Assembly: GCF_012489685.1 (NCBI RefSeq)
Contig: NC_080043.1
Location: forward strand, 60,292,283-60,356,282
Source of the DNA: Lotus japonicus
Taxonomy: Eukaryota; Streptophyta; Magnoliopsida; Fabales; Fabaceae
Direction: 5' to 3'
DNA: 64,000 nt
Shown here: piece by piece, positions 14,350 to 54,170 of the stretch
Layout of the letters: each line of letters starts with the position of its first letter
Position numbering within the stretch: position 1 is the stretch's first letter
Position numbers and translations under genes: made by a program
The notes under the pieces: model-generated
What the model was told of the DNA's origin: nothing
What the model saw: only the letters and a program-made list of their open reading frames with translations
The model's database searches: none

Positions 14350-14352
14350 AAA

Positions 14353-14900: not shown

Positions 14901-14929
14901 ATGGCTTGTAGTATGATAAGTGCGGGAAG

Positions 14930-26078: not shown

Positions 26079-26136
26079 GCAAGTTCTGATTACCACACCT
26101 AACAGTGTTCAGTGATCCGGGCCGGTGTGAAAAACA

Positions 26137-28047
26137 ATGGCTGCCACCACCAGTGAAACTCAAAGAGATGGTTACAACGCAAAGCCTCCTATGTTCGATG
26201 GTCAAAGGTTCGAATATTGGAAAGATAGACTGGAAAGTTTCTTTCTGGGTTTCGATGCAGATCTCTGGGATATTATTGTGGATGGCTATGAGCGTCCAGT
26301 TGATGCAGATGGCAAGAAGATCCCAAGGTCAGAGATGACTGCAGATCAAAAGAAGCTGTACTCACAACATCACAAAGCAAGAGCAATTCTTCTAAGTGCT
26401 ATTTCCTATGAGGAGTACCAGAAGATTACAGATCGTGAGTTTGCTAAAGGCATTTTTGATTCTCTGAAGATGTCTCATGAAGGAAACAAGAAAGTCAAAG
26501 AATCAAAGGCATTGTCTTTGATCCAAAAGTATGAATCCTTCATCATGGAGCCAAATGAGTCCATTGAAGAAATGTTCTCCAGATTTCAATTGCTTGTAGC
26601 TGGCATACGACCTCTCAACAAGAGCTACACAACAAAAGATCATGTCATAAGGGTCATCAGGTGTCTTCCTGAAAGCTGGATGCCTTTGGTGACTTCAATA
26701 GAGCTCACGAGAGACGTTGAGAATATGAGTTTAGAAGAACTCATCAGCATTTTGAAATGCCATGAGCTGAAACGCTCAGAGATGCAAGATCTGAGGAAAA
26801 AGTCCATAGCCTTGAAATCCAAATCTGAAAAGGCTAAGGTTGAGAAGTCAAAGGCTCTTCAAGCTGAAGAAGAAGAATCTGAAGAAGCATCAGAAGATTC
26901 TGATGAAGATGAGCTGACTCTGATCTCCAAGAGACTCAACCGCATCTGGAAGCACAGGCAGAGCAAGTTCAAAGGCTCTGGAAAGGCAAAAGGCAAGTAT
27001 GAGTCCTCAGGCCAGAAGAAGTCTTCAATCAAGGAAGTCACATGTTTTGAGTGCAAAGAATCTGGGCACTACAAAAGTGATTGTCCAAAGTTGAAGAAAG
27101 ACAAGAAGCCAAAGAAGCACTTCAAGACCAAGAAGAGTCTGATGGTGACATTCGATGAATCAGAGTCAGAGGATGTTGACTCTGATGGTGAAGTCCAAGG
27201 ACTCATGGCCATTGTCAAAGACAAAGGAGCAGAGTCAAAGGAAGCTGTTGACTCTGACTCAGAATCAGAAGGAGATCCTAACTCAGACGATGAAAATGAG
27301 GTATTCGCTTCCTTCTCTACCTCTGAACTGAAACATGCTTTGTCTGATATCATGGATAAGTATAACTCTTTATTGTCTAAGCATAAAAAGTTAAAAAAGA
27401 ACTTATCTGCTGTCTCTAAGACTCCTTCTGAACATGAGAAAATTATTTCTGATTTGAAAAATGAAAATCATGCTTTGGTAAATTCTAACTCTGTGCTTAA
27501 GAACCAGATTGCTAAGTTAGAAGAAATTGTTGCCTGTGATGCCTCTGATTGTAGAAATGAATCTAAGTATGAAAAGTCTTTTCAAAGATTCCTAGCTAAA
27601 AGCGTGGATAGAAGCTTAATGGCTTCAATGATCTATGGCGTAAGCAGAAATGGAATGCATGGCATTGGCTATTCTAAACCAATTAGAAATGAGCCTTCTG
27701 TGTCTAAAGCTAAATCCTTGTATGAATGCTTTGTTCCCTCTGGTACCATATTGCCTGATCCTGTACCTGCTAAAATTGCTAAAAACCCTCTTAAAAAGGG
27801 ATCTTTCTCTATGACTAAATATCATGCAAATATTCCTTTAAAATATTATGTTGAGACACCCAAGGTGATCAGAACCTCTGGGGTAACTAACAAAAGAGGA
27901 CCCAGAAAGTGGGTACCTAAGGACAAGATTATCTATCTTGCAGATATCCTTGATAGCTCCACTGAAACACCAATCATGGTATCTGGACAGTGGATGCTCG
28001 CGTCACATGACGGGAGAAAAGCGTATGTTCCGAGAGCTGAAACTTAA
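26137..28047 (+). CDS. gag: element A Gag (copia type, UBN2-like) with zinc knuckle
   Basis: ATG at 26137 opens 636 codons. Residues about 15-60 carry the start motif [19 protein letters not shown] of copia gag (DUF4219/UBN2-type). The capsid-like region follows to about residue 220, then a lysine/glutamate-rich linker. The zinc knuckle [14 protein letters not shown] (CX2CX4HX4C) is at residues 303-316. An acidic serine-rich region and a coiled-coil-like stretch come next, then a basic C-terminus. The frame is completely open. It overlaps the pol frame by at least 110 nt, with pol in the +1 frame; the last residues (after VSGQWML) are the protease codons read out of frame. Either a programmed +1 frameshift links gag to pol or one indel occurred here; element B lacks this region. 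Confidence 0.85.
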
Positions 28048-31000
28048 GCCTGGAGGCGAAGTTGGCTTCGGAGGAAATGAAAAGGGTAAAATTGTTGGTA
28101 CTGGTACTATTTGTGTAGATAGTAGTCCATGCATTGATAATTTTTTATTGGTAGACGGCTTAACACATAACTTATTGTCTATAAGTCAATTAGCTGACAA
28201 GGGTTATGATGTTATATTCAATCAAAAGTCCTGCCGGGCTGTAAGTCAGATCGATGGCTCTGTTCTGTTTAACAGCAAGAGGAAGAACAACATTTATAAG
28301 ATCAGATTATCTGAGTTGGAGGCTCAGAATGTGAAGTGCCTTCTGTCTGTTAATGAAGAGCAGTGGGTATGGCATAGACGGTTAGGGCATGCCAGTATGA
28401 GAAAGATTTCTCAGCTGAGCAAGCTAAACCTTGTCAGGGGCTTACCCAATCTGAAGTTCGCTTCAGACGCTCTTTGTGAAGCATGTCAGAAAGGCAAATT
28501 CACAAAAGTCCCTTTCAAGGCAAAGAATGTTGTCTCAACCTCAAGGCCGTTGGAACTTCTGCATATCGACCTTTTTGGACCAGTGAAAACTGAGTCTATA
28601 GGTGGCAAGAGATATGGGATGGTTATCGTTGATGACTATAGCCGCTGGACATGGGTAAAGTTTCTAACCCGCAAGGATGAGTCTCATGCTGTGTTCTCTA
28701 CCTTCATTGCTCAAGTGCAAAACGAGAAGGCTTGTAGGATTGTGCGTGTCAGAAGTGACCATGGTGGAGAGTTTGAGAATGACAAGTTTGAGAGTCTGTT
28801 TGATTCCTATGGAATTGCACATGATTTCTCTTGTCCCAGAACTCCTCAACAAAATGGTGTTGTTGAGAGGAAGAACAGAACTCTTCAGGAGATGGCTAGG
28901 ACCATGCTCCAAGAAACCGGCATGGCTAAGCACTTTTGGGCAGAGGCAGTAAATACAGCATGTTACATTCAGAACAGAATCTCTGTGAGACCAATTCTGA
29001 ATAAGACTCCTTATGAATTGTGGAAGAACATAAAACCCAACATTTCTTATTTTCATCCTTTTGGCTGTGTTTGTTATGTTCTCAATACTAAGGATAGATT
29101 GCATAAATTTGATGCTAAGTCTTCTAAGTGTCTATTACTTGGTTATTCTGATAGATCTAAAGGTTTTAGATTTTATAATACTGATGCTAAGACTATTGAA
29201 GAATCTATTCATGTTAGATTTGATGATAAGCTTGACTCTGACCAGTCAAAGCTAGTTGAAAAGTGTGCAGATTTAAGCATTAATGTTTCTGACAAAGGCA
29301 AAGCTCCAGAGGAAGTTGAGCCAGAGGAAGATGAACCAGAGGAAGAAGCTGGTCCCTCTAACTCACAAACTCTGAAGAAGAGCAGAATCACTGCAGCTCA
29401 CCCTAAGGAATTGATTCTGGGCAACAAAGACGAACCAGTCAGAACCAGATCTGCCTTCAGACCCTCTGAAGAGACCTTGCTGAGTCTGAAAGGATTGGTG
29501 TCCTTAATTGAACCCAAGTCCATAGATGAAGCTCTTCAGGACAAGGATTGGATTCTGGCCATGGAAGAAGAACTGAATCAATTTTCCAAGAACGATGTTT
29601 GGAGCTTAGTGAAGAAGCCTGAGAATGTTCATGTTATTGGAACGAAATGGGTATTCAGAAACAAGCTAAATGAGAAAGGAAAAGTAGTCAGAAACAAGGC
29701 AAGGCTAGTTGCTCAAGGCTACAGCCAGCAGGAAGGAATAGACTACACTGAAACATTTGCTCCGGTAGCAAGACTGGAGGCAATTAGACTGTTGATCTCC
29801 TTCTCAGTAAATCACAACATAGTTCTACATCAGATGGACGTAAAGAGTGCCTTCCTAAATGGTTATATCTCAGAGGAAGTCTATGTTCATCAACCCCCAG
29901 GTTTTGAAGATGAAAAGAAACCAGACCATGTGTTCAAATTAAAGAAATCACTCTACGGTCTGAAGCAAGCTCCCAGAGCATGGTATGAGAGACTTAGCTC
30001 ATTCCTTCTGGAGAATGAGTTTGTAAGGGGTAAAGTAGATACAACTCTTTTTTGCAAGACTTATAAAGATGATATCTTAATTGTGCAAATTTATGTGGAT
30101 GATATTATATTTGGTTCTGCTAATCAATCTCTATGCAAAGAATTTTCTGAGATGATGCAGGCTGAATTTGAGATGAGTATGATGGGAGAATTAAAGTACT
30201 TTCTGGGAATACAAGTTGATCAAACACCAGAAGGAACATATATCCATCAGAGCAAGTACACTAAAGAACTTCTGAAGAAGTTCAATATGCTGGAATCTAC
30301 AGTGGCCAAGACTCCAATGCATCCTACATGCATTTTGGAGAAAGAAGATAAAAGTGGTAAAGTATGTCAGAAGCTCTATCGTGGAATGATAGGTTCACTT
30401 CTATACTTAACTGCATCTAGGCCAGACATATTATTTAGTGTTCACTTATGTGCTCGTTTCCAATCAGATCCAAGGGAAACCCACTTAACTGCTGTTAAGA
30501 GGATCCTAAGGTATCTGAAAGGCACCACTAACCTTGGCTTGATGTATAAGAAAACATCAGAGTATAAGCTTTCAGGTTATTGTGATGCTGATTATGCTGG
30601 AGATAGAACATAGAGAAAAAGTACTTCTGGAAATTGTCAATTTCTGGGAAGCAATCTAGTCTCATGGGCAAGCAAGAGGCAATCAACCATTGCACTATCA
30701 ACTGCAGAGGCAGAATATATCTCAGCAGCAATATGCAGCACTTGTAAGATCAAGTTTTGATCTAGTAGTACAACTCTATGTTTTGATGATTACAAGTTAA
30801 CCTTTTGATATGAACAATTGTGGTACTCTAACGTGTTTTTCTGAGTGTGCTATTTACAGGCTCTGACCTCAACTCAATCTCACACAAATCAGAAGCACTG
30901 TGTATAAAGGGTAACCCAAGCAACGCTTTCGCATTCACCATGTTCAGTATGAACAGTGGAAAAGCTTCAGAAGTTCTGAAGCTATACAAACTCTGATGAG

Positions 31001-32258
31001 GACTCAGTCGCTAGAAGCTCTGAAGATCCAGAAGTTCTGATAGCCAAGAAACACTGAAGGTTCAGATGTTCTGATGGTGTAGAAGACTCTGAAGATCCAG
31101 AAGCTGAATAGTGGAAACTCTGAAGTCCAGAAGCAAGAAACTCTGAAGGCCATGTTCTTCCCTCTGAGTTCAGAATCAGAAGATACAATGGTCAGAGGAT
31201 CTGTGCTTTCCCTCTGACTCTGATCAACCGGCTTCACAAGTTCCAATATGAAGCATTCCCCTGATCAGAAGTCTCCTAGGTTAAAAGGTCAAGTCGTTAT
31301 CCAAGTACAAAAGCAAGTGTACCTTCCTGACGACCTACCTAACGTTCTCAGCCACAGCAGAAGCTGGATTTTCCAGAACTGCCCTCCAACGGTAGCATTT
31401 CCCATGCAACGCTCAACCCTAATCCTTGGAGTATATATAGAGGCTGAAGATTGAAAGAAGCTGCGAGAATACTAGAAGCAATACACACGCGCAAGATATT
31501 CAAAATATTCTAAGCTTTCTTTCATCTGAAATTCATTGTGTTTACTATTAGCTTTTTAGAAGCAAATCTCTTGTAAACATTTCTTTGATAAACAGTTTGT
31601 TTAGTTCCTTTAGGAGATCAAGGTTGATCGGATCCTAGAGAAGACTAAGAGAGTGAATCTTAGTGTGAGCTAAGTCAGTGTAATTGTTAGTCACTTGTAG
31701 GTTTCAAGTGCAGTTGTAACTCTTACCTGATTAGTGGATTGCCTTCATTCTAAGAAGGAAGAAATCACCTTAACGGGTGGACTGGAGTAGCTTGAGTGAT
31801 TTATCAAGTGAACCAGGATAAAATCCTTGTGTGCTTTTCTATCTCTTTATCTTTAGCACCTAAGTTCTCGAAAGATTTGTATAAATCTTTAAGGTGGTAG
31901 TTTTGTACTGAAAACGTTATTCAAACCCCCCCTTTCTACCGTTTTTCATACCTTCAGCACTCAGATGCTCTGGATGAAACATCAGCTGGAGGATTATCAG
32001 ATCCTTGAGAGCAATATCCCAATTTATTGTGATAACACTGCTGCAATCTCGTTGAGCAAGAATCCTATCTTGCATTCAAGGGCAAAGCACATTGAGGTAA
32101 AGTATCACTTCATTAGAGATTATGTGCAGAAGGGCGTACTTCTTCTGAAGTTTGTTGATACTGACCATCAATGGGCAGATATCTTTACAAAGCCCTTAGC
32201 AGAGGATAGATTTAATTTTATTCTGAAAAATCTAAACATGGACTTTTGTCCAGAGTGA
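27938..32258 (+). pseudogene. pol: element A Pol: protease, integrase, RT, RNase H; broken by a stop and a solo LTR
   Basis: The frame from 27938 (a TTG, not a true start) has protease [14 protein letters not shown] with D near residue 17, and the HHCC integrase zinc domain (WHRRLGHA ... CEACQKGK). Integrase catalytic residues D211, D274 and E310 show exact DX35E spacing ([23 protein letters not shown]). The RT core includes [25 protein letters not shown] and YVDDIIFG at about 719-726, then RNase H from [13 protein letters not shown] at 30611-30613 stands where element B has GAG. The RNase H is further split by solo LTR 30743-31956 and resumes at 31957 ([24 protein letters not shown]) to the end DFCPE at 32258. 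Everything up to the stop is intact. Confidence 0.9.
30743..31956 (+). mobile_element. solo SIRE-like LTR inside RNase H of element A, TSD GCACT
   Basis: A complete LTR (TGTAAG...CTTCA, 1,214 bp) of the same family, in the same orientation, flanked by GCACT at 30738-30742 and 31957-31961. The uninterrupted version exists in element B (minus strand near 48541), where the same codons read through with a single GCACT. It differs from the other copies around 31560-31610, so it is a somewhat diverged subfamily member. Confidence 0.95.
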
Positions 32259-32701: not shown

Positions 32702-35700
32702 ATGGTGAGACAAACCAGAAGATCTACTGCAGATGCACCTCAGTTCCCTCATATGGAAGTTGGTTTGGCAACGGGTCAAAGGGGCTCTGAGAACCCGGTG
32801 TAAGATCAAGTTTTGATCTAGTAGTACAACTCTATGTTTTGATGATTACAAGTTAACCTTTTGATATGAACAATTGTGGTACTCTAACGTGTTTTTCTGA
32901 GTGTGCTATTTACAGGCTCTGACCTCAACTCAATCTCACACAAATCAGAAGCACTGTGTATAAAGAGTGACCCAAGCAACGCTTTCGCATTCACCATGTT
33001 CAGTATGAACAGTGGAAAAGCTTCAGAAGTTCTGAAGCTATACAAACTCTGATGTGGACTCAGTCGCTAGAAGCTCTGAAGATCCAGAAGTTCTGATAAC
33101 CAAGAAACACTGAAGGTTCAGATGTTCTGATGGTGTAGAAGACTCTGAAGATCCAGAAGCTGAATAGTGGAAACTCTGAAGTCCAGAAGCAAGAAACTCT
33201 GAAGGCCATGTTCTTCCCTCTGAGTTCAGAATCAGAAGATACAATGGTCAGAGGATCTGTGCTTTCCCTCTGACTCTGATCAACCGGCTTCACAAGTTCC
33301 AATATGAAGTATTCCTCTGATCAGAAGTCTCCTAGGTTAAAAGGTCAAGTCGCTATCCAAGTACAAAAGCAAGTGTACCTTCCTGACGACCTACCTAACG
33401 TTCTCAGCCACAGCAGAAGCTGGATTTTCCAGAACTGCCCTCCAACGGTAGCATTTCCCATGCAACGCTCAACCCTAATCCTTGGAGTATATATAGAGGC
33501 TGAAGATTGAAAGAAGCGGAAGAAACTAAGAAGAAGCAACACACACGCGCAAGACATATTCAAAATATTCTAAGCTTTCTTTCATCTGAAATTCATTGTG
33601 TTTACTATAAGCTTTTTAGAAGCAATTTCTTTGTAAACAAGAACTTCATATACAGTTGTATAGTTTGCCTTTAGGAGATCAAGGTTGATCGGATCCTAGA
33701 GAAGACTAAGAGAGTGAATCTTAGTGTGAGCTAAGTCAGTGTAATTGTTAGTCACTTGTAGGTTTCAAGTGCAGTTGTAACTCTTACCTGATTAGTGGAT
33801 TGCCTTCATTCTAAGAAGGAAGAAATCACCTTAACGGGTGGACTGGAGTAGCTTGAGTGATTTATCAAGTGAACCAGGATAAAATCCTTGTGTGCTTTTC
33901 TATCTCTTATCTTTAGCACTTAAGTTCTCAAAAGATTTGTCAAAATCCTTAAGGTGGAAGTTTTGTTCTGAAAACGTTATTCAAACCCCCCCTTTCTACC
34001 GTTTTTCATACCTTCACCCGGCACAAGAACAAGTTCAAGCTCAAGAGCAGATTGTTCCAATTGCAGAACGGGGCTGTGCCGTTCACTGCGTATTTGCTCC
34101 TGAGGAACTCCAAGTCCTGACAGAATGGAGATTCAACCTCGATAACTTGGCTGCAAATGGGTATGATCTTCGTCCTGAAGTCCAAGCTCAAGGTTGGGGA
34201 AACTATTTCAATCGACTTCGAGGACCGGTGTATGAGAAATTGGTAAAGGAATTCTGGAAGCACGCAGACTGCGATGACACTCAGGTGGTCTCTCACATTC
34301 TTGGCAGGAAGATCATTATCACTGAGAAGTCATTCGTGAATCTGCTAGGTGCAGATACTGCTTATGGGTATCGTTTCCAACTGACGGAATCGAAGCTGAA
34401 ACCCAGCACCAAGGACATAGTCAACCAGGCTCTGTACACCACCTTCAAACCGGGCAAGACGAGTTACAAAGTGATGGATCTTCACCCCAAACTCAGAATC
34501 TGGCACAAGATCCTGCTCAACTGCATAAACCAGAGACCGAAGGGCAGTTCTCCAGACTACATCAACTTCAACCAGAAGGCGATGCTGTTCTTCATTCAAG
34601 ACAAGGAGAAGATCTGCCTTCCCTACTTCCTGTTCTCCTACTTAAAGGAATGCATCCGGAAGTCTCGCACCACCGCCTCCATCAAGTCTGCAATCAAATA
34701 TATCCCTTTTGGGAGGCTGCTCTCAGACTTTCTCATTGAAAGCAACTTGGTGCAAGATTTGATCGATGCTGGTTGCACAGAGGATTTGAGCACAATTGTC
34801 AGTGATGTCTTCACTGCAAACTCCTTGAAGAAGATGGGCTTAATCCAGAAGAAGATTGCTCCTGCTCATGAAGACACATCTTCTGAGATCAGAGGAAGAA
34901 GAATGCCTCTGAATGACTACCCTCTGTGGACTCAAGCAGACCATCCTGAAGCCATCAGATGCTATGTTGAAGACCTCAGGGCTCAAGGTTTCGAAATTGA
35001 CCTTGATGATTTCGTCAGCAGACTACCGCCAGCTCCAGAGTTTCCTTCTCCTCCCAAGAGGAAAGCTCAGAGGAAGATGGTTCTGGAAGAATCCTCTGAA
35101 GACTCTGATGTCCCTCTGGTCAAGAAGACGAAGAGAAAGCCTGATGATGGTGATGATGATGATAGTGAGGATGGTCCTCCAAAGAAGAAGCAGAAGAAGG
35201 TCAGAATCGTGGTGAAGCCTACTCGGGTGGAACCAGCTGCTGAAGTGGTCAGAAGGACTGAACCTCCTGCCAGAGTGACTCGATCATCAGCACATACAAG
35301 TAAGCCTGCACTTGCTTCTGATGATGATTTGAATTTATTTGATGCACTCCCTATTTCTGCTTTGCTCCAACACTCCTCAAATCCCCTCACTCCTATTCCT
35401 AAATCCCAGCCAGCCGCACAAACCACCTCTCCACCACATTCCCCAAGATCTTCCTTCTTTCAACCTTCTCCTACTGAAGCATCACTCTGGAATCTGCTTC
35501 AGAACCCAACCTCTAGGTCAGAAGAACCAACATCTCTCCTTACCATTCCATACGACCCATTATCTTCTGAACCAATCGTCCAAGACCAACCTGAGCCCAA
35601 CCAAACAGAACCACAACCCAGAACGTCTGATCACTCTGCTCCCAGAGCATCAGCACGTCCTGCTGTCAGAACCACGGATACAGACTCTTCAACCGCCTTT

Positions 35701-36774
35701 ACACCTGTATCCTTCCCAACCAATGTTATTGACTCTCCTCCCTCCAATACCTCTGAATCAATTAGAAAATTCATGGAGGTTAGAAAAGAAAAGGTATCTG
35801 CCTTGGAAGAGTATTACCTTACCTGTCCAAGCCCTAGGAGATATCCTGGCCCTAGACCTGAACGTCTAGTTGACCCAGATGAACCTATCTTGGCCAATCC
35901 TATCCAAGAGGCAGACCCCTTAGTTCAACAAGCTCATCCTGTCCCTGACCAACATGAGCCTATTCAACCAGACCCTGAACCTGCACAATCAGTGTCTAAC
36001 CAATCCTCGGTTAGATCACCTCACCCTCTGGTTGACACTTCAGACCCTCACCTTGGAACCTCTGAACCCAATGCTCCCATGATTAACATTGGTTCTCCAC
36101 AAGGTGCCTCTGAAGCTCATAGCAGCAATCACCCAGCCTCTCCTGAACCCAACCTCTCCATAATTCCCTATACTCACCTTCAACTCACATCTCTCTCTGA
36201 GTGCATCAATATCTTCTATCATGAAGCCTCTTTGAGGCTCCGCAATGTGCACGGTCAGACTGATCTCAGTGAGAATGCTGAAAATGTGGCTGATGAGTGG
36301 AACAATCTGAGCACTTGGCTAGTGGCTCAAGTTCCAATTATGATGCAGCTCCTGCATGCAGAGGGCAGTCAGAGCATTGAGGCCGCAAAGCAAAGGCTTG
36401 CTAGGAGGGTGGCTCTTCATGAACTAGAACAGAGAAATAAGCTTCTTGAAGCTATTGAAGAAGCCAAGAGAAAGAAAGAACAAGCAGAAGAAGCTGCACG
36501 TCAAGCAGCAGCTCAGGCTGAACAAGCCAGACTTGAGGCAGAGCGTCTTGAAGCTGAGGCTGAGGCAGAGCGACTTGCACCGGTTGTGTTTACTCCTGCT
36601 GCTTCTGCTTCCATTCCAGATCCTCAAGCTGCTCAGAATGTTCCTTCCAGTTCTTCTCAGCCAAGCTCTTCCAGACTCGACATCATGGAACAACGTCTTG
36701 ACACTCATGAATCCATGCTGATTGAGATGAAGCAAATGATGATGGAACTTCTGAGACGCACTGACAAACCTTAG
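32702..36774 (+). pseudogene. element A third ORF: 'putative plant transposon protein' domain, interrupted by a solo LTR
   Basis: ATG at 32702 starts MVRQTRRSTADAPQFPH. After 32 codons the solo LTR 32799-34016 intervenes, and the frame resumes with AQEQVQAQEQ near 34018. Without the LTR the product is about 950 aa, matching element B. The N-terminal third has RGPVYEKLVKEFWKHA, VVSHILGRKIIITE, LRIWHKILLNCINQRP, SSPDYIN and IPFGRLLSDFLIE, the signature of the 'putative plant transposon protein' domain (PF20167-type, from memory). A basic nuclear-signal-like patch (KKTKRKPDD, PPKKKQKKVRIVVK), a long proline/serine-rich middle and a C-terminal coiled coil (KRKKEQAEEAARQAAAQAEQ) follow. SIRE elements have an extra ORF here, often called env-like; I see no convincing membrane segment. 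Confidence 0.75.
32799..34016 (+). mobile_element. solo SIRE-like LTR inside the third ORF of element A, TSD CCCGG
   Basis: A 1,218-bp complete LTR flanked by CCCGG at 32794-32798 and 34017-34021. Element B shows the empty site (GAACCCGGCACAAG on its strand, near 47698). The left break of the 17.2-kb tandem duplication falls inside this LTR at 33051. Confidence 0.95.
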
Positions 36775-36976
36775 TTTTTAGGATCTCTTCTTTTTCTTCT
36801 TTTTCGTTAACTTTGTTTTCCTTTTGTTAAACTCTGTTTCTTTTTATTTATTTATTCTCTTTTGTTCGTTTGTGATTATATATGCATAACTATATACTTA
36901 TGACAAATATGTTTGCTAAACTCGTTTTATTCATAATTGTTCTATGTTTACATCATATTTCTTTACATCATATAAT
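36775..36976. other. convergent intergenic spacer between third ORF and mini-gene
   Basis: About 200 bp of T-rich then AT-rich sequence between two convergent ORFs (third ORF ends 36774, mini-gene ends 36977). It contains AATAAA-like words on both strands, fitting shared 3' ends. Nothing else seen. Confidence 0.45.
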
Positions 36977-37369
36977 CTAGAATGGAGGATCCCTCCTCAT
37001 TCTTCTGCACTCCTGGCGCTGCTCTGACCTATCCTTTTCCAGACGATCCAGTACATGCTGGATGTTGCTGAGCCTGATCTTTAGCTCATCCCTCTCCAGA
37101 ATGTCTTCTGAAGTCCTGAGCTTCTCTTCCAAAATTTCTTTTTCTTCCAGCAGCTTGAGTTCAAGCCGGCTGAGTTCTTGCACCTCCTCCACGAAGGCAA
37201 GAAATTCCTTCAGGTCTCTCTCCAACTCTGGCCGCAGGTCCTCTTCCAGCAGTGTCCGTGTCAGCTCCGCGATGGTAGTTGCACCCTCTGGATGCCTGAT
37301 GTTCAGGAACAAGTCCTCTTCAAAGGCCTTCTTCCTCAGCTCTTCTAGTGCTACGTTGTATGATGCCAT
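36977..37369 (-). CDS. antisense 130-aa mini-gene of element A
   Basis: An intact minus-strand ORF, starting MASYNVALEELRKKAF and ending RRMRRDPPF. It is homologous to the 129-aa ORF at 4613-5002 in a gypsy element and nearly identical to 44348-44740 in element B. The protein is strongly charged, with E, L, R and K in heptad patterns from about residue 45 to 115 (probable coiled coil), and no known domain that I can name. It has its own TATA box 61 nt upstream (37430-37422) and a TCGAGAAAC box starting at 37475. Compared with element B, the six changes noticed between residues 75 and 115 are mostly conservative (E/D, K/R, I/V), which suggests selection on the protein. Function unknown. Confidence 0.75.
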   Translation of the reverse strand: MASYNVALEELRKKAFEEDLFLNIRHPEGATTIAELTRTLLEEDLRPELERDLKEFLAFVEEVQELSRLELKLLEEKEILEEKLRTSEDILERDELKIRLSNIQHVLDRLEKDRSEQRQECRRMRRDPPF

Positions 37370-37421
37370 TCTTTTTTAATGAAACTTGTTCGAGGTGTGA
37401 AGCTTACCTTTCTCTCCAACG

Positions 37422-37475
37422 CTTTATATAGGCTTCACTTTCTCTCTGAAAGTTACTGCTCTTACGGTTTCTCGA
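37422..37475 (-). promoter_or_regulatory. mini-gene promoter (element A)
   Basis: On the minus strand TATATAAAG runs from 37430 to 37422. TCGAGAAAC begins at 37475, 45 nt before the TATA start. The same distance is found upstream of the mini-genes at 4613 and 44348. Confidence 0.6.
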
Positions 37476-38173
37476 GGTTAAGTTCTTGGTAACTGACCCT
37501 TCTATTTACTCACTTGACCGGTGGTAAACGTTCATCCTTTGCGTTAACTCTTCTATTTCTTTTCGCCTAACTCTGATTCTTACATCGTTTTCATTTTCTT
37601 TAAACTTAGACCTTCTCTAAGGGGGAGTACCTTGTACTTCAAGCTAAGCTTTTCACACCCCAAGCTTTTTGCTTATGACAAAAAGGGGGAGTAACCCAGT
37701 TTTTGATGTGTAAGATGTGTTAGTGTGATTTATTTTTCTTTTGGAGAATTTAAGAGTTCCACCTTCATGACCATAGATGTGTCACTGGGCAAATACAAGG
37801 AATACATTTCACTTCTTCTGAAGTGATTATAAGTTGACTCTGATACCCAAGACTCTGATACCTTGTCCATGACTCTGATCACTTATGCGCTCTGATTATT
37901 CGTTTTTCATCTATGTCATAAGCTTTTCACTCTGAACTCTTATATTTTTTTTGGCTCAGAATCTAGACTTTACTAACGTTTTCATCAAGTATTAGATTCA
38001 GGGGGAGCTAAGCTCAGAATCAAGCAGTGACTTGAATTCAGAATGAGCAAGATAAACTATTCACATCAGGATAAGTATTATTCTATATCTCTAAACTCTG
38101 AGTGAATTCAGTTTAATGTTTAAGAATTGTTCATCAAAAATCTTAGTTTTGTCATCATCAAAAAGGGGGAGAT
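37476..38173 (+). other. 3' untranslated region of element A with repeated polypurine tracts
   Basis: Non-coding. GGGGGAG occurs four times on the plus strand: near 37621, 37683, 38000 and 38164. The last, AAAAAGGGGGAGAT, abuts the 3' LTR and is the polypurine tract that primes plus-strand DNA. The others are candidate extra tracts. Confidence 0.7.
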
Positions 38174-38558
38174 TGTAAGATCAAGTTTTGATCTAGTAGT
38201 ACAACTCTATGTTTTGATGATTACAAGTTAACCTTTTGATATGAACAATTGTGGTACTCTAACGTGTTTTTCTGAGTGTGCTATTTACAGGCTCTGACCT
38301 CAACTCAATCTCACACAAATCAGAAGCACTGTGTATAAAGGGTAACCCAAGCAACGCTTTCGCATTCACCATGTTCAGTATGAACAGTGGAAAAGCTTCA
38401 GAAGTTCTGAAGCTATACAAACTCTGATGTGGACTCAGTCGCTAGAAGCTCTGAAGATCCAGAAGTTCTGATAACCAAAAAACACTGAAGGTTCAGATGT
38501 TCTGATGGTGTAGAAGACTCTGAAGATCCAGAAGCTGAATAGTGGAAACTCTGATGTC
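38174..38558 (+). repeat. element A 3' LTR, truncated to 385 bp
   Basis: It starts TGTAAGATCAAG right after the polypurine tract and matches the 5' LTR with one mismatch up to CTCTGATGTC at 38558. There it changes abruptly to ACTTGGAGGG, unrelated to the LTR. The remaining 836 bp of LTR are missing. Confidence 0.9.
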
Positions 38559-38968
38559 ACTTGGAGGGAAACTGGATGAGTTGGGAGGTGCCACGTGGCA
38601 TAGGTTTTCTTGAAGAAAACCTTCCTTTCACATATATATAGATTCTATATGTACCAATCTACTCTATAATCAGGAAAACACACAATCAATATTCCTTCAC
38701 TTCTCTATACCACTGTTGTACCTTTTTCTTCTACTGTATCGTTTCCTTATTTTTATTTTGTATATTGAAGAAAACTAACATATATTAAACGGTATAATCG
38801 ACAAATAGTCATCATCATTTGTTCTTGAAAAATAAAAAATTCATTAGGAGTCCTCTAGCAACATATTTTCTTGTCTTTATAAAGAACCTTGTTTCCCAAA
38901 CACTCAATACACTTCCAACTCTTTTATGTTTTTTCACTATCACAAATACAGATCTTTCAATTACCACT
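38559..38968 (+). promoter_or_regulatory. upstream region of the B3-like gene
   Basis: Contains GCCACGTGGCA (a palindromic G-box-type core CACGTG) near 38592-38602, an ATATATATAG motif near 38632, and TATAAAG at about 38878-38884, which is about 90 nt before the ATG and the better core promoter candidate. The segment with GGAGGGAAAC and GAAGAAAACCTTC resembles 40736-40812 and 23098-23166. Confidence 0.5.
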
Positions 38969-39460
38969 ATGGCTGCTGAGAACTGGGGTCAGGATTACAA
39001 GCGTTTCAACTTGCTCTGGCAACCCCAAGAGGTTAACAAACAACTTTCGCCTATTCTCTAAACTTTATTTAGTTATGTCATTGATACTCATTTTATGTTG
39101 TTGTGTTTGCAGGAAGTAGAATTGAGGATCCCACAGAGGTTCTGGAATATGTGGGGCGATATAGTAGATGATGTTATTGAGGTATGGGACCCTGTTGGAA
39201 ACTATTTCCATTGTCGGGTCAACCATGATGGTGAAGGTGGTTTCTTTATGGATGATCTGACCACCATGCTCCGCCAACGTTACCATGTAGAACGCAGCGC
39301 CGTTATTTACTTTCGAATGTTAAGGAGCAATCTCTTCCTCATTCACATTGAGACAACATCAGGCGAAGTATATGTTTACCCGAGGTTCAACAATGCGAAC
39401 CAGCAGCAACTTGATGATGAGGGTGATGGGGTATTGTCGGAGGAGAGTGTCGAGAACTGA
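38969..39460 (+). CDS. small B3-like DNA-binding protein, two exons
   Basis: Exon 1 is 38969-39031 (MAAENWGQDYKRFNLLWQPQ plus E). A GT...AG intron of 81 bp spans 39032-39112, with donor GTTAAC and acceptor TTTGCAG. Exon 2 is 39113-39460. The joined protein is 136 aa. Exon 2 reads like a B3 fold: VELRIPQRFWNMW, a DPVGNYFHCRV strand pair, GGFFMDDLTTML, and AVIYFRMLRSNLFLIHI, followed by a short acidic tail (DDEGDGVLSEE). B3 proteins bind DNA as plant transcription factors; single-domain forms are common in REM-like groups. The intron is phase 0 and frame is kept, so it may be a working gene. B3 is my reading of the fold, not a search result. Confidence 0.6.
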
Positions 39461-40480
39461 ATGAAGCGACCTTGTTTTACTACCCAAACATGAATGCAAC
39501 TATTTACTCTTAATTGTATTCAAATTTTGTTCACATTTGGTTTGCCTTTTGAACTCGATCTATCTCATGCATATTTTATCTTTAGATTATATGTCTTGGA
39601 TAATCTTTTTACTTTATTTCTTCTCTAATTCTTTATTGATGTGTTACTTGTTAAGATCAACACATAGTAGATAGAAACTTGAGTCAAATCGCATATTTTT
39701 CGATTTTGTATGTTACGAAGTGGAAAGAAGAAGTAACACAACCATTTCTCAAGCATGCTACACATTAGTTTGCGCTTCTTTCTCTATTTCAGGCATCGTT
39801 TCATTTTTTAATAATAATTAATTTTATTAATAATATCAAATTTGAATAATTTTGGCATTCATTAGTATAGAATTTATTAATTTTAAATTTGAATTTAAAT
39901 AAAATCATATTTTTGTTATATTTTATAACACGGAAATAGGATGAAATAAATTTCGTTAATTCTAAATTTTGCATTAAATATTAATAATGATTACTTCGAT
40001 GAATGATTTCGAATATAATAAATTTTTCGTGAATTAGTATTACATTGATAAATTTGGAATTCAGATTTTAAAAAAACTAAAATTTTATTATATTTTATAA
40101 CACGTAGAAGGAAGAAATAAATTTATTTTATTTGAAAATTTTCATTAAATAGTAATTATGATTAATTTGATGAATAATTTGGAATTTTAATAATTTTTTA
40201 TTAATTAGTATTAAATTGATTAACTTTTAATTAAACATTAAAACTAAAGCACGCCTAAACATTAAAGATCGGTTGTTGCTCTTTAGATTCGTGGCATTGT
40301 TTTGGGATTTCTTTTTCCTTTAAAGATGGATGATGTACTCTTATCTATTCTTCATTCCATATATATAAAATATTTGCTTTTGAAATTTTTTTTTGTTAAA
40401 TGTACTCTGGCTGGTGCCACTTTTTTTTTGGTACATCAACACTAAAAGAAAGAAAACAACACCACCAGGCTAATTAATAT
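39461..40480. other. AT-rich DNA downstream of the B3-like gene
   Basis: No gene. Very AT-rich from 39800 to 40260, with repeated TAATAATTTTGG/ATTAGTATTA-like motifs. A likely transcript 3' end for the B3-like gene lies in the first 200 bp. Confidence 0.45.
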
Positions 40481-40880
40481 ATATGTTTGGTTTTAAAAAA
40501 AACTAATTTAACATTTATAGTTAAATGTAATATGAAATGGTTGGAATGATGAATAAAACTTGTTTTTGCTGTCCAAAAATATATGATATGGTTGGCGAGA
40601 AAGTCAATATTAATGTTTTATTTGAAATTCAATTTCTTTTGAAATGGAAATTCAAATTATTCATAGGGAATCAAGCATTAAAATTAAATGCTGATTTTAC
40701 TCAATTATTTTATTAAAAAATTATTGGAATAATAATTTTCATCTTGGAGGGAAACTTACATGTCTAGGACGAGGACACGTGACATAATTCTTTTAGTAGA
40801 AAACCTTCTTCGATATAAAAAAAATTGATTATTCTTTTAACTTTTTAAAAGATAATATTTCGAAATAGCAATCAAATGTA
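40481..40880. repeat. copy of the AT-rich repeat also at 22.8-23.3 kb
   Basis: Shares AATATGAAATGGTTGGAATG, TTTTGCTGT, AATATTAATGTTTTATTTG, ATTGGAATAATAATTTTCAT and TTGGAGGGAAACT...ACATGTCTAGGA with 22897-23165, in the same order. It is interrupted at about 40885-41330 by a LINE tail that the other copy lacks. Confidence 0.7.
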
Positions 40881-40946
40881 TTTTTTATGATGCATCGGAA
40901 AATTACAAAAAAACAACGAAAAGCTAAGGAACTGACAGAGAGTCCT

Positions 40947-41327
40947 TCAAGCACCACGTCTTGCTAATGAGTCTGCTACCATATTGCTATCCCAATGAAT
41001 CAAATTGATCTTCACATCCCAAGCTCTCTGCAGCAGCAGTAAAATCTAAGAGAGAACCAAGAACTCCACATGAAATTGCACTACCGTGGCATCTTCCAAA
41101 ACTGTAACCAATTCAGCGCAGTCCACCTCGCAAAGAACTTTACGAAATCCCTTCTTCCAAGCTACCTTGAGCACGTCCCATAACCCAGAGCTTCAGCTTT
41201 AAAAGCGCTTCCCTCCATCCCACCAGCGAAACAACCCACAACCCAGTGGCCATTCTGGTCTCTAATCACTCCACCGGCCCCATACATGTTCTCCAGCCCT
41301 TTAAAGCTTCCATCTGAGTTACATTTA
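40947..41327 (-). pseudogene. LINE-d RNase H remnant
   Basis: On the minus strand: CNSDGSFKGLENMYGAGGV, RDQNGHWVVGCFAGG, a one-base deletion, then KGFRKVLCEVDCAELVTVL, a stop, and IHWDSNMVADSLARRGA with a terminator at 40947-40949. This is the plant LINE RNase H domain with its catalytic D, E and D positions still visible. The poly(A) side is the T/A run near 40880. The surrounding repeat at 23.2 kb provides the empty site. Confidence 0.75.
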
Positions 41328-41379
41328 ACAGTTAATTATGGATAAAAGTTGTAGTGTTTAAAATAGGATATAATTATTT

Positions 41380-42320
41380 AAAGCAATTGTTGGTCAATCT
41401 GCAAGTGTACAGAATATACCCGGTTTTAAATTATCGAACCTCAGGGAATTAGATTGCAAATTCAGTTTAAGAGTCAAGTTCAAGGTTGAAAAGCAAGTAA
41501 AACTCAGTTTTAAAGGTTGATTGTTTCTTTGATTATGTGAAAGACAAGTGAACGAGTAATAAAGCGATTGAAATTCAGAAGAAAGATTGCCTTGGGTTCT
41601 TGTTCAACTAATTCAGTTTTAGCAAACCTTCCTATTCAATAAATCATGAGTCTCTCCTTGATGTTCTAGCCTAAATAGTCATCTATCGATGCCTCGTAAA
41701 GAAAACCCTTTCTAATCAAAAGATAGGTTCAATTCCTTGATAACCTAAACATTTGCTAGAAGCACTAAGCATACATTTCGGGCCAACAAACCCCAACCCT
41801 TCCTCTATTCCTAGCAGCAAGTATAGTAGAGGTAATCTCACAACAAGTCCCTATTCTATAACAAACTATCGTTATGATTATAGAAAAGTAAAAAACTAGC
41901 ATGCATTCAAGCTTGAAAGATAAAGCATAGGAGTGAGATTCAAGGGTTTACTCAGAACAACATGAATAGAAAATGATTGAAAGCTAAAACATTCAAAGTC
42001 TTAGAAAGAACCCAAAGCAAAAAGGGTTTTAGCCAAGCATGGCTATGAAATCCAAACAAGAAAGTAAAGATGAAACCTGGAACATAAGGCTTAGAGAAAG
42101 CTCCTCAAGCTCCAGAACTCAAACCCTCTCTTCTAACTTATTACAATATGAGAAATTGACAAAAGGTCCCAAGAAAAATGCCTAAAAACCAATTTATAGG
42201 CAAAACAGGCGAGTCTGGGCGCTCAAGCGCCAATTCAGAGCGCCTGAGCACCAATTCAAGCTGAAAACATGCTCTCTGGAAGGTAATTGGCGCCTAGGCG
42301 CCAATTCCCAGCGCCTGGGC
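41380..42320. repeat. unidentified interspersed repeat with GGCGC palindromes
   Basis: The sequence beginning GCAAGTGTACAGAATATACC ... TATCGAACCTCAGGGAATTAG resembles a common plant interspersed repeat I recognise but cannot assign. It ends with several GGCGC-rich palindromic words (42214-42320), including a perfect 22-bp palindrome at 42286-42307. It stops exactly where the element B LTR begins. Confidence 0.45.
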
Positions 42321-43542
42321 TGAAGGTATGAAAAACGGTAGAAAGGGGGGGTTTGAATAACGTTTTCAGTACAAGACTTCCACCTTAAGGATTTTGGCAA
42401 ATCTTTCGAGAACTTAAGTGCTAAAGATAAGAGATAGAAAAGCACACAAGGATTTTATCCTGGTTCACTTGATAAATCACTCAAGCTACTCCAGTCCACC
42501 CGTTAAGGTGATTTCTTCCTTCTTAGAATGAAGGCAATCCACTAATCAGGTAAGAGTTACAACTGCACTTGAAACCTACAAGTGACTAACAATTACACTG
42601 ACTTAGCTTACACTAAGATTCACTCTCTTAGTCTTCTCTAGGATCCGATCAACCTTGATCTCCTAAAGGCAAACTATACAACTGTATATGAAGTTCTTGT
42701 TTACAAAGAAAGTGCTTCTAAAAAGCTTATAGTAAACACAATGAATTTCAAGATGAAAGAAAGCTTAGAATATTTTGAATATGTCTTGCGCGTGTGTATT
42801 GCTTCTTCTTAGTTTCTTCCGCCGCTTCTTTCAATCTTCAGCCTCTATATATACTCCAAGGATTAGGGTTGAGCGTTGCATGGGAAATGCTACCGTTGGA
42901 GGGCAGTTCTGGAAAATCCAGCTTCTGCTGTGGCTGAGAACGTTAGGTAGGTCGTCAGGAAGGTACACTTGCTTTTGTACTTGGATAGCGACTTGACCTT
43001 TTAACCTAGGAGACTTCTGATCAGGGGAATACTTCATATTGGAACTTGTGAAGCCGGTTGATCAGAGTCAGAGGGAAAGCACAGATCCTCTGACCATTGT
43101 ATCTTCTGATTCTGAACTCAGAGGGAAGAACATGGCCTTCAGAGTTTCTTGCTTCTGGACTTCAGAGTTTCCACTATTCAGCTTCTGGATCTTCAGAGTC
43201 TTCTACACCATCAGAACATCTGAACCTTCAGTGTTTCTTGGTTATCAGAACTTCTGGATCTTCAGAGCTTCTAGCGACTGAGTCCACATCAGAGTTTGTA
43301 TAGCTTCAGAACTTCTGAAGCTTTTCCACTGTTCATACTGAACATGGTGAATGTGAAAGCGTTGCTTGGGTCACTCTTTATACACAGTGCTTCTGATTTG
43401 TGTGAGATTGAGTTGAGGTCAGAGCCTGTAAATAGCACACTCAGAAAAACACGTTAGAGTACCACAATTGTTCATATCAAAAGGTTAACTTGTAATCATC
43501 AAAACATAGAGTTGTACTACTAGATCAAAACTTGATCTTACA
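42321..43542 (-). repeat. element B 3' LTR (complete)
   Basis: 1,222 bp on the minus strand from TGTAAGATCAAG (43542) to CATACCTTCA (42321). It is preceded on that strand by the polypurine tract AAAAAGGGGGAGAT and contains the same TATATATAG promoter motif. Confidence 0.92.
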
Positions 43543-44192
43543 ATCTCCCCCTTTTTGATGATGACAAAACTAAGATTTTTGATGAACAATTCTTAAACAT
43601 TAAACTGAATTCACTCAGAGTTTAGAGATATAGAATAATACTTATCCTGATGTGAATAGTTTATCTTGCTCATTCTGAATTCAAGTCACTGCTTGATTCT
43701 GAGCTTAGCTCGCCCTGAATCTAATACTTGATGAAAACGTTAGTAAAGTCTAGATTCTGAGCTAAATGATGTAAGAGTTCAGAGTGAAAAACTTATGACA
43801 TAGATGAAGAACGAATAATCAGAGCGCATAAGTGATCAGAGTCAGGGACAAGGTATCAGAGTCTTGGGTATCAGAGTCAACTTAGAATCACTTCAGAAGA
43901 AGTGAAATGTATTCCTTGTATTTGCCCAGTGACACATCTATGGTCATGAAGGTGGAACTCTTAAATTCTCCAAAAGAAAAAATAAATCACACTAACACAT
44001 CTTACACATCAAAAACTGGGTTTACTCCCCCTTTTTGTCATAAGCAAAAAGCTTGGGGTGTGAAAAACTTAGCTTGAAGTACAAGGTACTCCCCCTTAGA
44101 GAAGGTCTAAGTTTAAAGAAAATGAAAACGATGTAAGAATCAGAGTTAGGCGAAAATAAATAGAAGAGTTAATGCAAGGGATGAACGTTTAC
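43543..44192 (-). other. element B 3' untranslated region with polypurine tracts
   Basis: Mirror of 37476-38173. On the minus strand it shows GGGGGAG at the LTR edge and near 44031 and 44095. The internal tract near 43710 is altered to GGGCGAG. Non-coding. Confidence 0.65.
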
Positions 44193-44294
44193 CACCGGTC
44201 AAGTGAGTAAATAGAAGGGTCAGTTACCAAGAACTTAACCTCGAGAAACTGTAATAGCATTAACTTTCAGAGAGAAAGTGAAGCCTATAAAAAG
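44193..44294 (+). promoter_or_regulatory. mini-gene promoter (element B)
   Basis: CACCGG at 44193-44198, TCGAGAAACTG at 44241 running on to TAGCATTAACT at 44265, and TATAAAAAG at 44286-44294, 62 nt before the ATG at 44348. Order and the 45-nt box-to-TATA spacing match the gypsy-borne copy at 4443-4554. Confidence 0.6.
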
Positions 44295-44347
44295 CGTTGG
44301 AGAGAAAGGTAAGCTTCACACCTCGAATAATTTTCAGTAAGAAAAAA

Positions 44348-44740
44348 ATGGCATCATACAACGTAGCACTAGAAGAGCTGAGGAAGAAGGCCTTTGAAGA
44401 GGACTTGTTCCTGAACATCAGGCATCCAGAGGGTGCAACTACCATCGCGGAGCTGACACGGACACTGCTGGAAGAGGACCTGCGTCCAGAGTTGGAGAGA
44501 GACCTGAAGGAATTTCTTGCCTTCGTGGAGGAGGTGCAAGAACTCAGCCGCCTTGAACTCAAGCTGCTGGAAGAAAAAGAAATCTTGGAAAAGAAGCTCA
44601 GGACTTCAGAAGAGATTCTGGAGAAAGATGAGCTAAAGGTCAGACTCAACAACATCCAGCATGTACTGGAGCGTCTGGAGAAGGATAGGTCAGAGCAGCG
44701 CCAGGAGTGCAGAAGAATGAGGAGGGATCCTCCATTCTAG
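44348..44740 (+). CDS. antisense 130-aa mini-gene of element B
   Basis: Intact plus-strand ORF, antisense to element B. It has the same start (MASYNVALEELRKKAF) and end (RRMRRDPPF) as the element A copy. An upstream in-frame start at 44297 exists, but the homologues and TATA spacing favour 44348. Changes against element A between residues about 75 and 115 are few and mostly conservative. The frame survives although the third ORF of the same element carries a nonsense codon. Function unknown. Confidence 0.75.
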   Translation: MASYNVALEELRKKAFEEDLFLNIRHPEGATTIAELTRTLLEEDLRPELERDLKEFLAFVEEVQELSRLELKLLEEKEILEKKLRTSEEILEKDELKVRLNNIQHVLERLEKDRSEQRQECRRMRRDPPF

Positions 44741-44944
44741 ATTATATGATGTAAAGAAATATGATGTAAACATAGAACAATGAATAAAAAAGACTTTTGC
44801 AAACATATGTGACATAAGTATATAGATATATATGCATATATAATCACAAACGAACAAAAGAGAATAAATAAATAAAAAGAAACAGAGTTTAACAAAAGGA
44901 AAACAAAGTTAACGAAAAAGAAGAAAAAGAAGAGATCCTAAAAA

Positions 44945-47794
44945 CTAAGGTTTGTCAGTGCGTCTCAGAAGTTCCATCATCATTTGCTTCATCTCAATCA
45001 GCATGGATTCATGAGTGTCAAGACGTTGTTCCATGATGTCGAGTCTGGATGAGCTTGTCTGAGTAGAGCTGGAAGGAACATTCTGAGCAGCTTGAGGTTC
45101 TTGAAGGGAAGCAGAAGCAGCAGGAGTAAACACAACTGGTGCAAGTCGCTCTGCCTCAGCCTCAGCGTCAAGACGCTCTGCCTCAAGTCTGGATTGTTCA
45201 GCCTGAGCTGCTGCTTGACGTGCAGCTTCGTCTGCTTGTTCTTTCTTTCTCTTGGCTTCTTCAATAGCTTCAAGAAGCTTATTTCTCTGTTCTAGTTCGT
45301 GAAGAGCCACCCTCCTAGCAAGCCTTTGCTTTGCAGCCTCAATGCTCTGACTGCCCTCTGCATGCAGGAGCTGCATCATAATTGGAACTTGAGCCACTAG
45401 CCAAGTGCTCAGATTGTTCCACTCATCAGCCACATTTTCAGCATTCTCACTGAGATCAGTCTGACCGTGCACATTGCGGAGCCTCAAAGAGGCTTCATGA
45501 TAGAAGATATTGATGCACTCAGAGAGAGATGTGGGTTGAAGGTGAGTATAGGGAATTATGGAGAGGTTGGGTTCAGGAGAGGCTGGGTGATTGCTGCTAT
45601 GGGCTTCAGAGGCACCTTGTGGAGAACCAATGTTAATCATGGGAGCATTGGGTTCAGAGGTTCCAAGGTGAGGGTCTGAAGTTTCAACCAGAGGGTGAGG
45701 TGATCTAACCGAGGATTGGTTAGACACTGATTGTTCAGGTTCAGGGTCTGGTTGAATGGGCTCTTGTTGGTCAGGGACAGGGTGAGCTTGTTGAACTAAG
45801 GGGTCTGCCTCTTGGATAGGATTGGCCAAGATAGGTTCATCTGGGTCAACTAGACGTTCAGGTCTAGGGCCAGGATATCTCCTAGGGCTTGGACAGGTAA
45901 GGTAATACTCTTCCAAGGCAGATACCTTTTCTTTTCTAACCTCCATGAATTTTCTAATTGATTCAGAGGTATTGGAGGGAGGAGAGTCAATAACATTGGT
46001 TGGGAAGGATACAGGTGTGAAGGCTGTTGAAGAGTCTGTATCCGTGGTTCTGACAGCAGGACGTGCTGATGCTCTGAGAGCAGAGTGATCAGACGTTCTG
46101 GGTTGTGGTTCTGTTTGGTTGGGCTCGGGTTGGTCTTGGACGATTGGTTCAGAAGATAATGGGTCGTACGGAATGGTAAGGAGAGATGTTGGTTCTTCTG
46201 ACCTAGAGGTTGGGTTCTGAAGCAAATTCCAGAGAGGTGCTTCAGTAGGAGAAGGTTGAAAGAAGGAAGATCTTGGGGAATGTGGTGGAGAGGTGGTTTG
46301 TGCGGCTGGCTGGGATTCAGGAATAGGAGTGAGGGGATTTGAGGAGTGTTAGAGCAAGGCAGAAATAGGGAGTGCATCAAATAAATTCAAATCATCATCA
46401 GAAGCAAGTGCAGGCTTACTTGAATGTGCTGATGATCGAGTCACTCTGGCAGGAGGTTCAGTCCTTCTGACCACTGCAGCAGCTGGTTCCACCCGAGTAG
46501 GCTTCACCACGATTCTGACCTTCTTCTGCTTCTTCTTTGGAGGACCATCCTCACTATCATCATCATCACCATCATCAGGCTTTCTCTTTGTCTTTTTGAC
46601 CAGAGGGACATCAGAGTCTTCAGAGGATTCTTCCAGAACCATCTTCCTCTGAGCTTTCTTCTTTGGAGGAGAAGGAAACTCTGGAGCTGGCGGTAGTCTG
46701 CTGATGAAATCATCAAGGTCAATCTCGAATCCTTGAGCCCTGAGGTCTTCAACATAGCATCTGATGGCTTCAGGATGGTCTGCTTGAGTCCACAGAGGGT
46801 AGTCATTCAGAGGCATTCTTCTTCCTCTGATCTCAGAAGATGAGTCTTCATGAGCAGGAGCAATCTTCTTCTGGATTAAGCCCATCTTCTTCAAGGAGTT
46901 TGCAGTGAAGACATCACTGACAATTGTGCTCAAATCCTCTGTGCAACCAGCATTGATCAAGTCTTGCACCAAGTTGCTTTCAATGAGAAAGTCTGAGAGC
47001 AGCCTCCCAAAAGGGATGTATTTTATTGCAGACTTGATGGAGGCGGTGGTGCGAGACTTCCGGATGCATTCCTTTAAGTAGGAGAACAGGAAGTAGGGAA
47101 GGCAGATCTTCTCCTTGTCTTGAATGAAGAACAGCATCGCCTTCTGGTTGATGTTGATGTAGTCTGGAGAACTGCCCTTCGGTCTCTGGTTTATGCAGTT
47201 GAGCAGGATCTTGTGCCAGATTCTGAGTTTGGGGTGAAGATCCATCACTTTGTAACTCGTCTTGCCCGGTTTAAAGGTGGTGTACAGAGCCTGGTTGACT
47301 ATGTCCTTGGTGCTGGGTTTCAGCTTCGATTCCGTCAGTTGGAAACGATACCCATAAGTAGTATCTGCACCTAGCAGATTCACGAATGACTTCTCAGTGA
47401 TAATGATCTTCCTGCCAAGAATGTGAGAGACCACCTGAGTGTCATCGCAGTCTACGTGCTTCCAGAATTCCTTTACCAATTTCTCATACACCGGTCCTCG
47501 AAGTCGATTGAAATAGTTTCCCCAACCTTGAGCTTGAACTTCAGGACGAAGATCATACCCATTTGCAGCCAAGTTATCGAGGTTGAATCTCCATTCTGCC
47601 AGGACTTGGAGTTCCTCAGGAGCAAATACGCAGTGAACGGCACAGCCCCGTTCTGCAATAGGAACAATCTGCTCTTGAACTTGAACTTGTTCTTGTGCCG
47701 GGTTCTCAGAGCCCCTTTGACCCGTTGCCAAACCAACTTCCATGTGAGGGAACTGAGGTGCATCTGCAGTAGATCTTCTGGTTTGTCTCACCAT
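44945..47794 (-). pseudogene. element B third ORF, 'putative plant transposon protein' domain, with one nonsense codon
   Basis: Minus strand from ATG at 47794 (MVRQTRRSTADAPQ) to the terminator at 44945. The two open parts are 47794-46349 and about 46348-44945, separated by a TAA where element A has CAA (after LPISALL). Full length would be about 949 aa. The domain order is as in element A, here without the LTR insertion, so this copy shows the uninterrupted N-terminus and the empty CCCGG site. The upstream frame extends beyond 47794 to 47950, but the MVRQ start matches element A and follows a leader. Confidence 0.75.
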
Positions 47795-48237
47795 TTTGAA
47801 GAGGTTGAAGGTTTGAGGTAGAAGATGAAGTTTGAAGGATGAAGAGAGATCGAGAGAGAAATCAAGAAAGAGGCGGTTTTGAAAAGCAGAGAGTGCGAGA
47901 GTGAAAACCGGAAGTGAACGAGAACGTGTGTGTATAGTGGGTTTTATCAAATAACCGTTGTTGATTCAAAAAGCACTTTAAGATCAACGGTTGAAAATTA
48001 AAGATTGATAGTAACAGTAAAATACACAATCACACACAGGAGATAAGCATATCTACACGCAATCATAACAGACTGTCACACGGGCACAAGGAATTATGCA
48101 TCAGAAATTCTGACACACCTGTTGTTGTCTCAGCTTCAGAGTCAGTACCAGTGGGCACACACACTCTGATTGAGTTACCTTCTGGACTAGACATCTTCTG
48201 ATCAAGAAGTATCATAGTCAGAGGTTCTGATCCATCT

Positions 48238-53968: not shown

Positions 53969-54170
53969 TTTTTAGGATCTCTTCTTTTTCTTCTTTTTCG
54001 TTAACTTTGTTTTCCTTTTGTTAAACTCTGTTTCTTTTTATTTATTTATTCTCTTTTGTTCGTTTGTGATTATATATGCATAACTATATACTTATGACAA
54101 ATATGTTTGCTAAACTCGTTTTATTCATAATTGTTCTATGTTTACATCATATTTCTTTACATCATATAAT

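Follow-up and report, generated by a model that had tools for sequence, protein, structure and literature searches.

A short antisense gene and the promoter-like sequence that precedes it are shared, as one unit, by Ty1/copia elements of the Sirevirus type and a Ty3/gypsy locus of Tat/Retand-like type. Both lie within a 64,000-nucleotide stretch of Lotus japonicus DNA, the whole of which was analysed and is called the window below. The copies of this gene (aORF) in the two superfamilies are homologous, run in the same orientation relative to their elements, have a common spacing of upstream boxes and are constrained in the antisense frame. With slightly better than even confidence, we attribute this to one accessory gene that moved between a Sirevirus and a Tat/Retand-like element by a route other than its own mRNA, and whose product, a predicted helical hairpin, may act in trans.

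Five copies of the aORF were found within the window, and the three described first are each antisense to gag or pol of their own locus. Copy A (36977-37369, minus strand) is antisense to the plus-strand copia element A and copy B (44348-44740, plus strand) to the minus-strand copia element B; both encode 130 aa. The gypsy copy (4613-5002, plus strand) encodes 129 aa and is antisense to gag. Two further copies lie in a tandem duplication that relates 33050-46807 to 50244-64000 at an offset of 17.2 kb, with 99.95% identity over 13,761 columns before the window ends: a copy of A at 54171-54563 (minus strand) and a copy of B at 61541-61933 (plus strand, end approximate), which is frameshifted near codon 81. 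The number of independent copies is therefore three, two copia and one gypsy. The joint of the duplication (33050-64000) lies inside a Sirevirus LTR, and the duplication is either recent or an effect of the assembly.

The initial annotation, made from the sequence alone, had described the ORFs of A, B and the gypsy copy as homologous along their length. BLASTP bore this out, aligning copia copy A with the gypsy copy end to end with 50 of 130 positions identical (38%) and 79 of 130 positive (E 2e-28). Scores no better than those of shuffled coiled-coil sequences had been named as an outcome that would count against it, and this outcome was not seen. The Smith-Waterman score was 231, and the maxima were 67, 63 and 84 in 3,000 shuffles (full, heptad-preserving and 10-residue window; 1,000 each). 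Taken separately, both halves contributed: the N-terminal half reached 160 where its shuffles peaked at 44, and the coiled half reached 76 where they peaked at 46. Because the score is far above all shuffle maxima, the similarity is not that of shuffled coiled coils.

Elements A and B are Sirevirus as judged by features rather than by an RT tree. The features used were AGGGGGAG tracts upstream of the 3' LTR, a polyC run and the primer site (PMC2829016). Element A, on the plus strand, is ordered 5' LTR (24844-26064), gag (26131-28044; Retrotran_gag_2 and a CCHC zinc knuckle), pol (27887-30610), ORF2 (33892-36774), aORF and truncated 3' LTR. Its pol has the copia order, with the integrase (rve at 202-303) before RVT_2 (552-795, E 4.4e-84). 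Four AGGGGGAG octamers occur on the plus strand in the linker of A, at 37620, 37684, 38000 and 38164 (37620-38173); the last is followed by AT, and the truncated 3' LTR begins with TG at 38174. Three more lie in B, and 14 of the 15 matches in the window fall in the linkers of A, B and their duplicates, with 1.7 expected by chance in the window. Towards the 3' end of the LTR a run of C is present near 26030, and the LTR end is closely followed by TGGTATCAGAGC, which we take to be a tRNA-Met primer site. Element B (42321-50249, minus strand) is truncated at its 5' end and retains pol, ORF2 (in two pieces), aORF and 3' LTR; read from 50249 to 42321, it has the same order as A from pol onward. Thus, the aORF lies antisense between pol and the 3' LTR (the aORF-3R position) in two of two copia elements. 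Two LTR copies of the same Sirevirus family, apparently solo, interrupt element A at 30742-31956 and 32799-34016; the latter lies in ORF2, and the ORF2 listed above starts within it.

The gypsy copy sits in a different setting. The gag and protease region of this locus (5808-8303, minus strand) is preserved in pieces running from 8303 to 5808, and the pieces are 38-59% identical in amino acids, over their aligned parts, to a neighbouring locus at 11973-15298 (plus strand). That locus contains Retrotrans_gag, RVT_1, RT_RNaseH and a further RVT_3 domain; integrase was not seen in it. In the Ogre/Retand arrangement, an additional RNase H domain is placed after the first RNase H and before integrase (PMC6317226). 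Beside the aORF, two other ORFs are found on the plus strand, antisense to gag. The ORF at 371-1195 has a match to Transposase_28 (PF04195, E 6.4e-10), a Retand marker, and that at 3302-4042 looks like a coiled coil by eye and has no Pfam match. In Retand clusters, antisense Transposase_28 ORFs were reported in 97%, Smc-type antisense ORFs in some, and some elements are non-autonomous (PMC11963269). RT was not found in 1-8600, and hence no Retand-lineage RT in that region, so the element is deleted or non-autonomous and we call it Retand-like; its 3' LTR lies beyond the window. A single AGGGGGAG octamer occurs at 1800 (minus strand, gag sense); chance alone would give about 1.7 in the window. 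The claim that the gene is shared across Ty1/copia and Ty3/gypsy is thus supported by Sirevirus features on one side and a Tat/Retand-like locus on the other.

The initial annotation had missed that the similarity of A, B and the gypsy copy extends upstream of the ATG. It starts at CTCGAGAAAC, 107, 108 and 111 bp before the ATG, respectively, and in the comparisons made the blastn match runs from there into the ORF over 312-313 columns (64%, E 9e-20 to 1e-17). On the minus strand of copy A, the CTCGAGAAACCG box (37465-37476) begins 46 bp before a TATA box (37425-37430), and a start-like motif, CTTCACACCTC (37392-37402), lies 28 bp after it. The corresponding region of copy B (44240-44324, plus strand) has CTCGAGAAACTG at 44240, TATA at 44286 and CTTCACACCTC at 44314, and that of the gypsy copy (4502-4585, plus strand) has CTCGAGAAACCG at 4502, TATA at 4548 and CTTCACATCTC at 4575. 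The TATA boxes are at -61 (A), -62 (B) and -65 (gypsy) from the ATG, 46 bp on from the CTCGAGAAAC box in all three. The start-like CTTCACAYCTC follows 27-28 bp past TATA in each, a distance at which transcription in plants is expected to begin.

The test of this upstream similarity was local alignment against shuffles and random places. The 115 bp upstream gave a local score of 24 for A and 22 for B, whereas 500 dinucleotide shuffles per copy reached no more than 19 and 17; among 1,961 random places in the window the highest score was 19, against 24. Measured by global identity, the stretch exceeded shuffles by little (75, where the highest of 500 shuffles gave 70). The spaced patterns CTCGAGAAAC-36-TATAWA and TATAWA-21/22-CTTCACA matched at the five aORF copies only in 64 kb on both strands, a uniqueness that is descriptive since the patterns were taken from the alignment beforehand. 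Further out, the sharing did not exceed chance: downstream AATAAA signals (+46, +43, +30) were reached by 49 and 42 of 500 shuffles, and a ACCACCGG block further upstream scored 14 against a shuffle mean of 13.8 and maximum of 20. We conclude that promoter-like sequence and ORF are shared together as one unit. CTCGAG hexamers, of which the window has 10, also precede the Transposase_28 ORF (at 304) and the ORF at 3302-4042 (at 3234).

Coding constraint acts in the antisense frame. Among 36 frame-against-frame comparisons of the copia and gypsy copies, the antisense pair scored best (231; next 132). Differences between copia A and the gypsy copy numbered 55, 51 and 80 at codon positions 1, 2 and 3, corresponding to a dN of 0.62 and a dS of about 2.0, which is near saturation. 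Copies A and B differ by six synonymous and six non-synonymous changes (dS 0.071, dN 0.020; synonymous excess p 0.034).

Three protein searches yielded eight homologous proteins (P0003-P0010), whose longest contigs measure 483 to 1,102 bases. Five of the eight are 129-130 aa long and three are pieces of 81-84 aa. P0003, P0005 and P0009 are 60-66% identical to the gypsy copy. P0004, which sits on a 561-base contig, and P0010 are labelled Bradyrhizobium sp. TM233, a sorghum-root isolate (PMC7104290); with identities of 91% and 88% to the aORF of the Sirevirus, they probably represent plant contamination in the TM233 draft genome. In a tree of the eight rows of at least 125 aa (the three pieces of 81-84 aa were left out), the gypsy copy grouped with P0003 and P0005, while P0004, P0006 and P0007 joined the copia copies. 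Within this set, any two proteins were between 38% and 95% identical, with P0005 and P0007 intermediate.

No match above the curated cut-off, Transposase_28 included, was obtained for 11 members against Pfam or for four members against NCBIfam. Structure prediction, which had been suggested as a further check, gave two short N-terminal helices followed by a long hairpin of two helices, at about residues 46-86 and 90-126. Two models of the same 11 sequences reached mean pLDDT values of 79.3 (gypsy first) and 79.2 (copia first); residues 21-30 were poorly predicted (block means 50 and 56). In the window copies, the predicted hairpin is flanked by the conserved RKKAF.EDLF.N.RHPE on its N-terminal side and by the MRR.PPF end. 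Fold comparison of the predicted structure returned no meaningful match.

These data are consistent with the following scheme. The unit would comprise the promoter-like sequence and the ORF of 129-130 aa, placed head-on to gag-pol in both elements, downstream of pol in the Sirevirus and downstream of the remaining gag/protease in the Tat/Retand-like element. It would descend from one gene that passed between the two, either in the form of DNA or within the genomic RNA of an element, in the latter case through template switching while reverse transcription was under way. Capture from its own mRNA would not account for the shared sequence upstream of the expected start site, provided that the start is placed correctly. 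RNA polymerase II may transcribe the aORF from its own promoter, independently of the LTR, and the product, predicted to be a helical hairpin, may serve the element in trans as an accessory factor of a regulatory or nuclear kind, much as has been suggested for Grande gene23 (PMC7264820) and for HBZ and other antisense genes of retroviruses.

The initial annotation had considered the gene probably captured by, or moved between, the superfamilies. Homology across them stands, whereas capture or movement itself is our interpretation, with one locus on the gypsy side. The intermediate homologues P0005 and P0007 support an exchange; its limits are that single gypsy locus, in which RT was not found and whose 3' LTR lies beyond the window, and a dS near saturation.

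Independent capture of the same host gene by both elements, promoter included, appears unlikely. Cases in which retrotransposons took up host genes are on record (PMC7264820), and the unit, with its TATA, leader and ORF, looks like an ordinary small gene. However, both captures would need to have landed antisense downstream of gag-pol with identical box spacing. Moreover, no hit named as a plant protein, and no host gene, was obtained in the three protein searches, in a collection of uncertain plant coverage and with a third search confined to the 7,994 candidates that had most words in common.

We consider it quite unlikely that the gypsy copy is a separate fragment, either a stand-alone gene or a piece of an unknown, diverged Sirevirus, inserted in the Retand-like locus. 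Such an insertion would suit a single locus with no flanking LTR pair in the window and with RT missing beside the aORF. Against it, Sirevirus gag, pol and in-frame ORF2 pieces (for ORF2, two pieces of element B) had no tblastn match in 1-8600 at E 0.01, and neither had the Sirevirus LTR at the cut-offs used. When 1-8600 was compared with the window by blastn (E 0.001), only the aORF unit was common with the Sirevirus elements. The initial annotation had itself named a SIRE-like fragment at 4613-5002 as the outcome that would count against it; we found no other Sirevirus similarity in 1-8600 at these cut-offs, although this concerns a single locus whose LTR pair is not in view. In addition, the position of the aORF between gag/protease and the antisense Transposase_28 ORF is the Retand order, and the homologues P0003, P0005 and P0009 resemble the gypsy copy elsewhere, albeit seen without context.

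A variant compatible with exchange is that the protein counters host silencing rather than regulating transcription of the element. Its small size, predicted helical hairpin and basic tail would fit, and a Pfam match at chance level to Cucumovirus 2b was obtained for one of 11 members (E 0.11). It lacks significance, as 11 other families were also weakly matched, some at lower E (Mod_r, 0.014). We regard the variant as a live alternative, though an unlikely one. Another reading, brought up for antisense ORFs in general (PMC7264820), is that antisense transcription itself is conserved, acting through dsRNA or small RNAs, and not the protein. We consider this very unlikely, because the amino-acid frame is conserved, third positions vary most and five of the eight database homologues keep 129-130 aa, while the remaining three are pieces of 81-84 aa.

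Extra ORFs in plant LTR elements have been characterised as highly heterogeneous and mostly of unknown origin, and their function has been questioned (PMC6317226, PMC7264820). Antisense ORFs have been described as a class in Retand, Grande and RIRE2, and a review reports an own promoter and a nuclear product for Grande gene23 (PMC7264820). In common bean, 15 of the 78 gypsy families were reported to have extra ORFs in antisense; in its copia elements extra ORFs were reported in two of 65 families, and these are env-like and not antisense (PMC4093653). Like the antisense additional ORFs of Grande, RIRE2, Retand and bean gypsy elements, TRP28 ORFs included (aORF-3R), the aORF of the copia elements is antisense between pol and the 3' LTR. 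The promoter reported for Grande gene23 would have its counterpart in the promoter-like sequence of the aORF (PMC7264820). The aORF differs in having no Transposase_28 match and in occurring also in a copia element, as far as the descriptions of the published proteins allow a comparison. No antisense gene in a Sirevirus, and none common to copia and gypsy, was among the matches listed in our literature search, the scope of which left subscription literature mostly outside; the word 'antisense' is absent from the main text of PMC2829016. The earlier statement that no function has been described for this gene agrees with the literature found, though antisense ORFs as a class are described (PMC7264820, PMC4093653).

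The retention of one short gene, along with the spacing of its upstream boxes, in both superfamilies speaks for a function. It also points to an exchange of genes between the copia and gypsy superfamilies and suggests that unrelated kinds of retroelement can trade accessory genes. It is possible, though we put this forward tentatively, that promoter and ORF form a portable module circulating in antisense among superfamilies of plant retroelements, one that remains active under silencing of the LTR promoter and aids its carrier against control by the host. One parallel is HBZ, which is a helical protein. Like HBZ and other antisense retroviral genes, the aORF is an antisense accessory gene near the 3' LTR (PMC11963269). 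What differs is the promoter-like sequence, which lies inside the element some 740 bp away from the LTR; the likeness considered is one of position. Bdelloid retroelements offer another parallel, with the same types of accessory ORF3 found across unrelated retroelement classes. Those ORF3s differ from the aORF in being rotifer enzymes (GDSL esterase, DEDDy exonuclease), and no shared promoter is mentioned for them in the abstract (PMC5408684).

At 129-130 aa, the aORF is smaller than the bean ORF2s (211-939 aa; PMC4093653) and is too short for the main size cut-offs that the published surveys consulted had applied (chiefly 600 bp, PMC11963269; 250 codons, PMC6317226), so more such genes may have been missed. 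In the available text of PMC6317226, only the env-like eORF-3'F is named as characteristic of SIRE, in 74% of elements. The aORF resembles eORF-3'F as an extra gene in the linker past pol and differs from it in being antisense; the same element has ORF2 in sense. In ORF2, no stretch of 19 residues is strongly hydrophobic (the highest mean is about 1.1), and no clear membrane segment is apparent. In this env-like position, ORF2 of A (33892-36774) and of B (47965-44948) matched Transposase_32 at 41.4 and 42 bits, just under the cut-off of 45.
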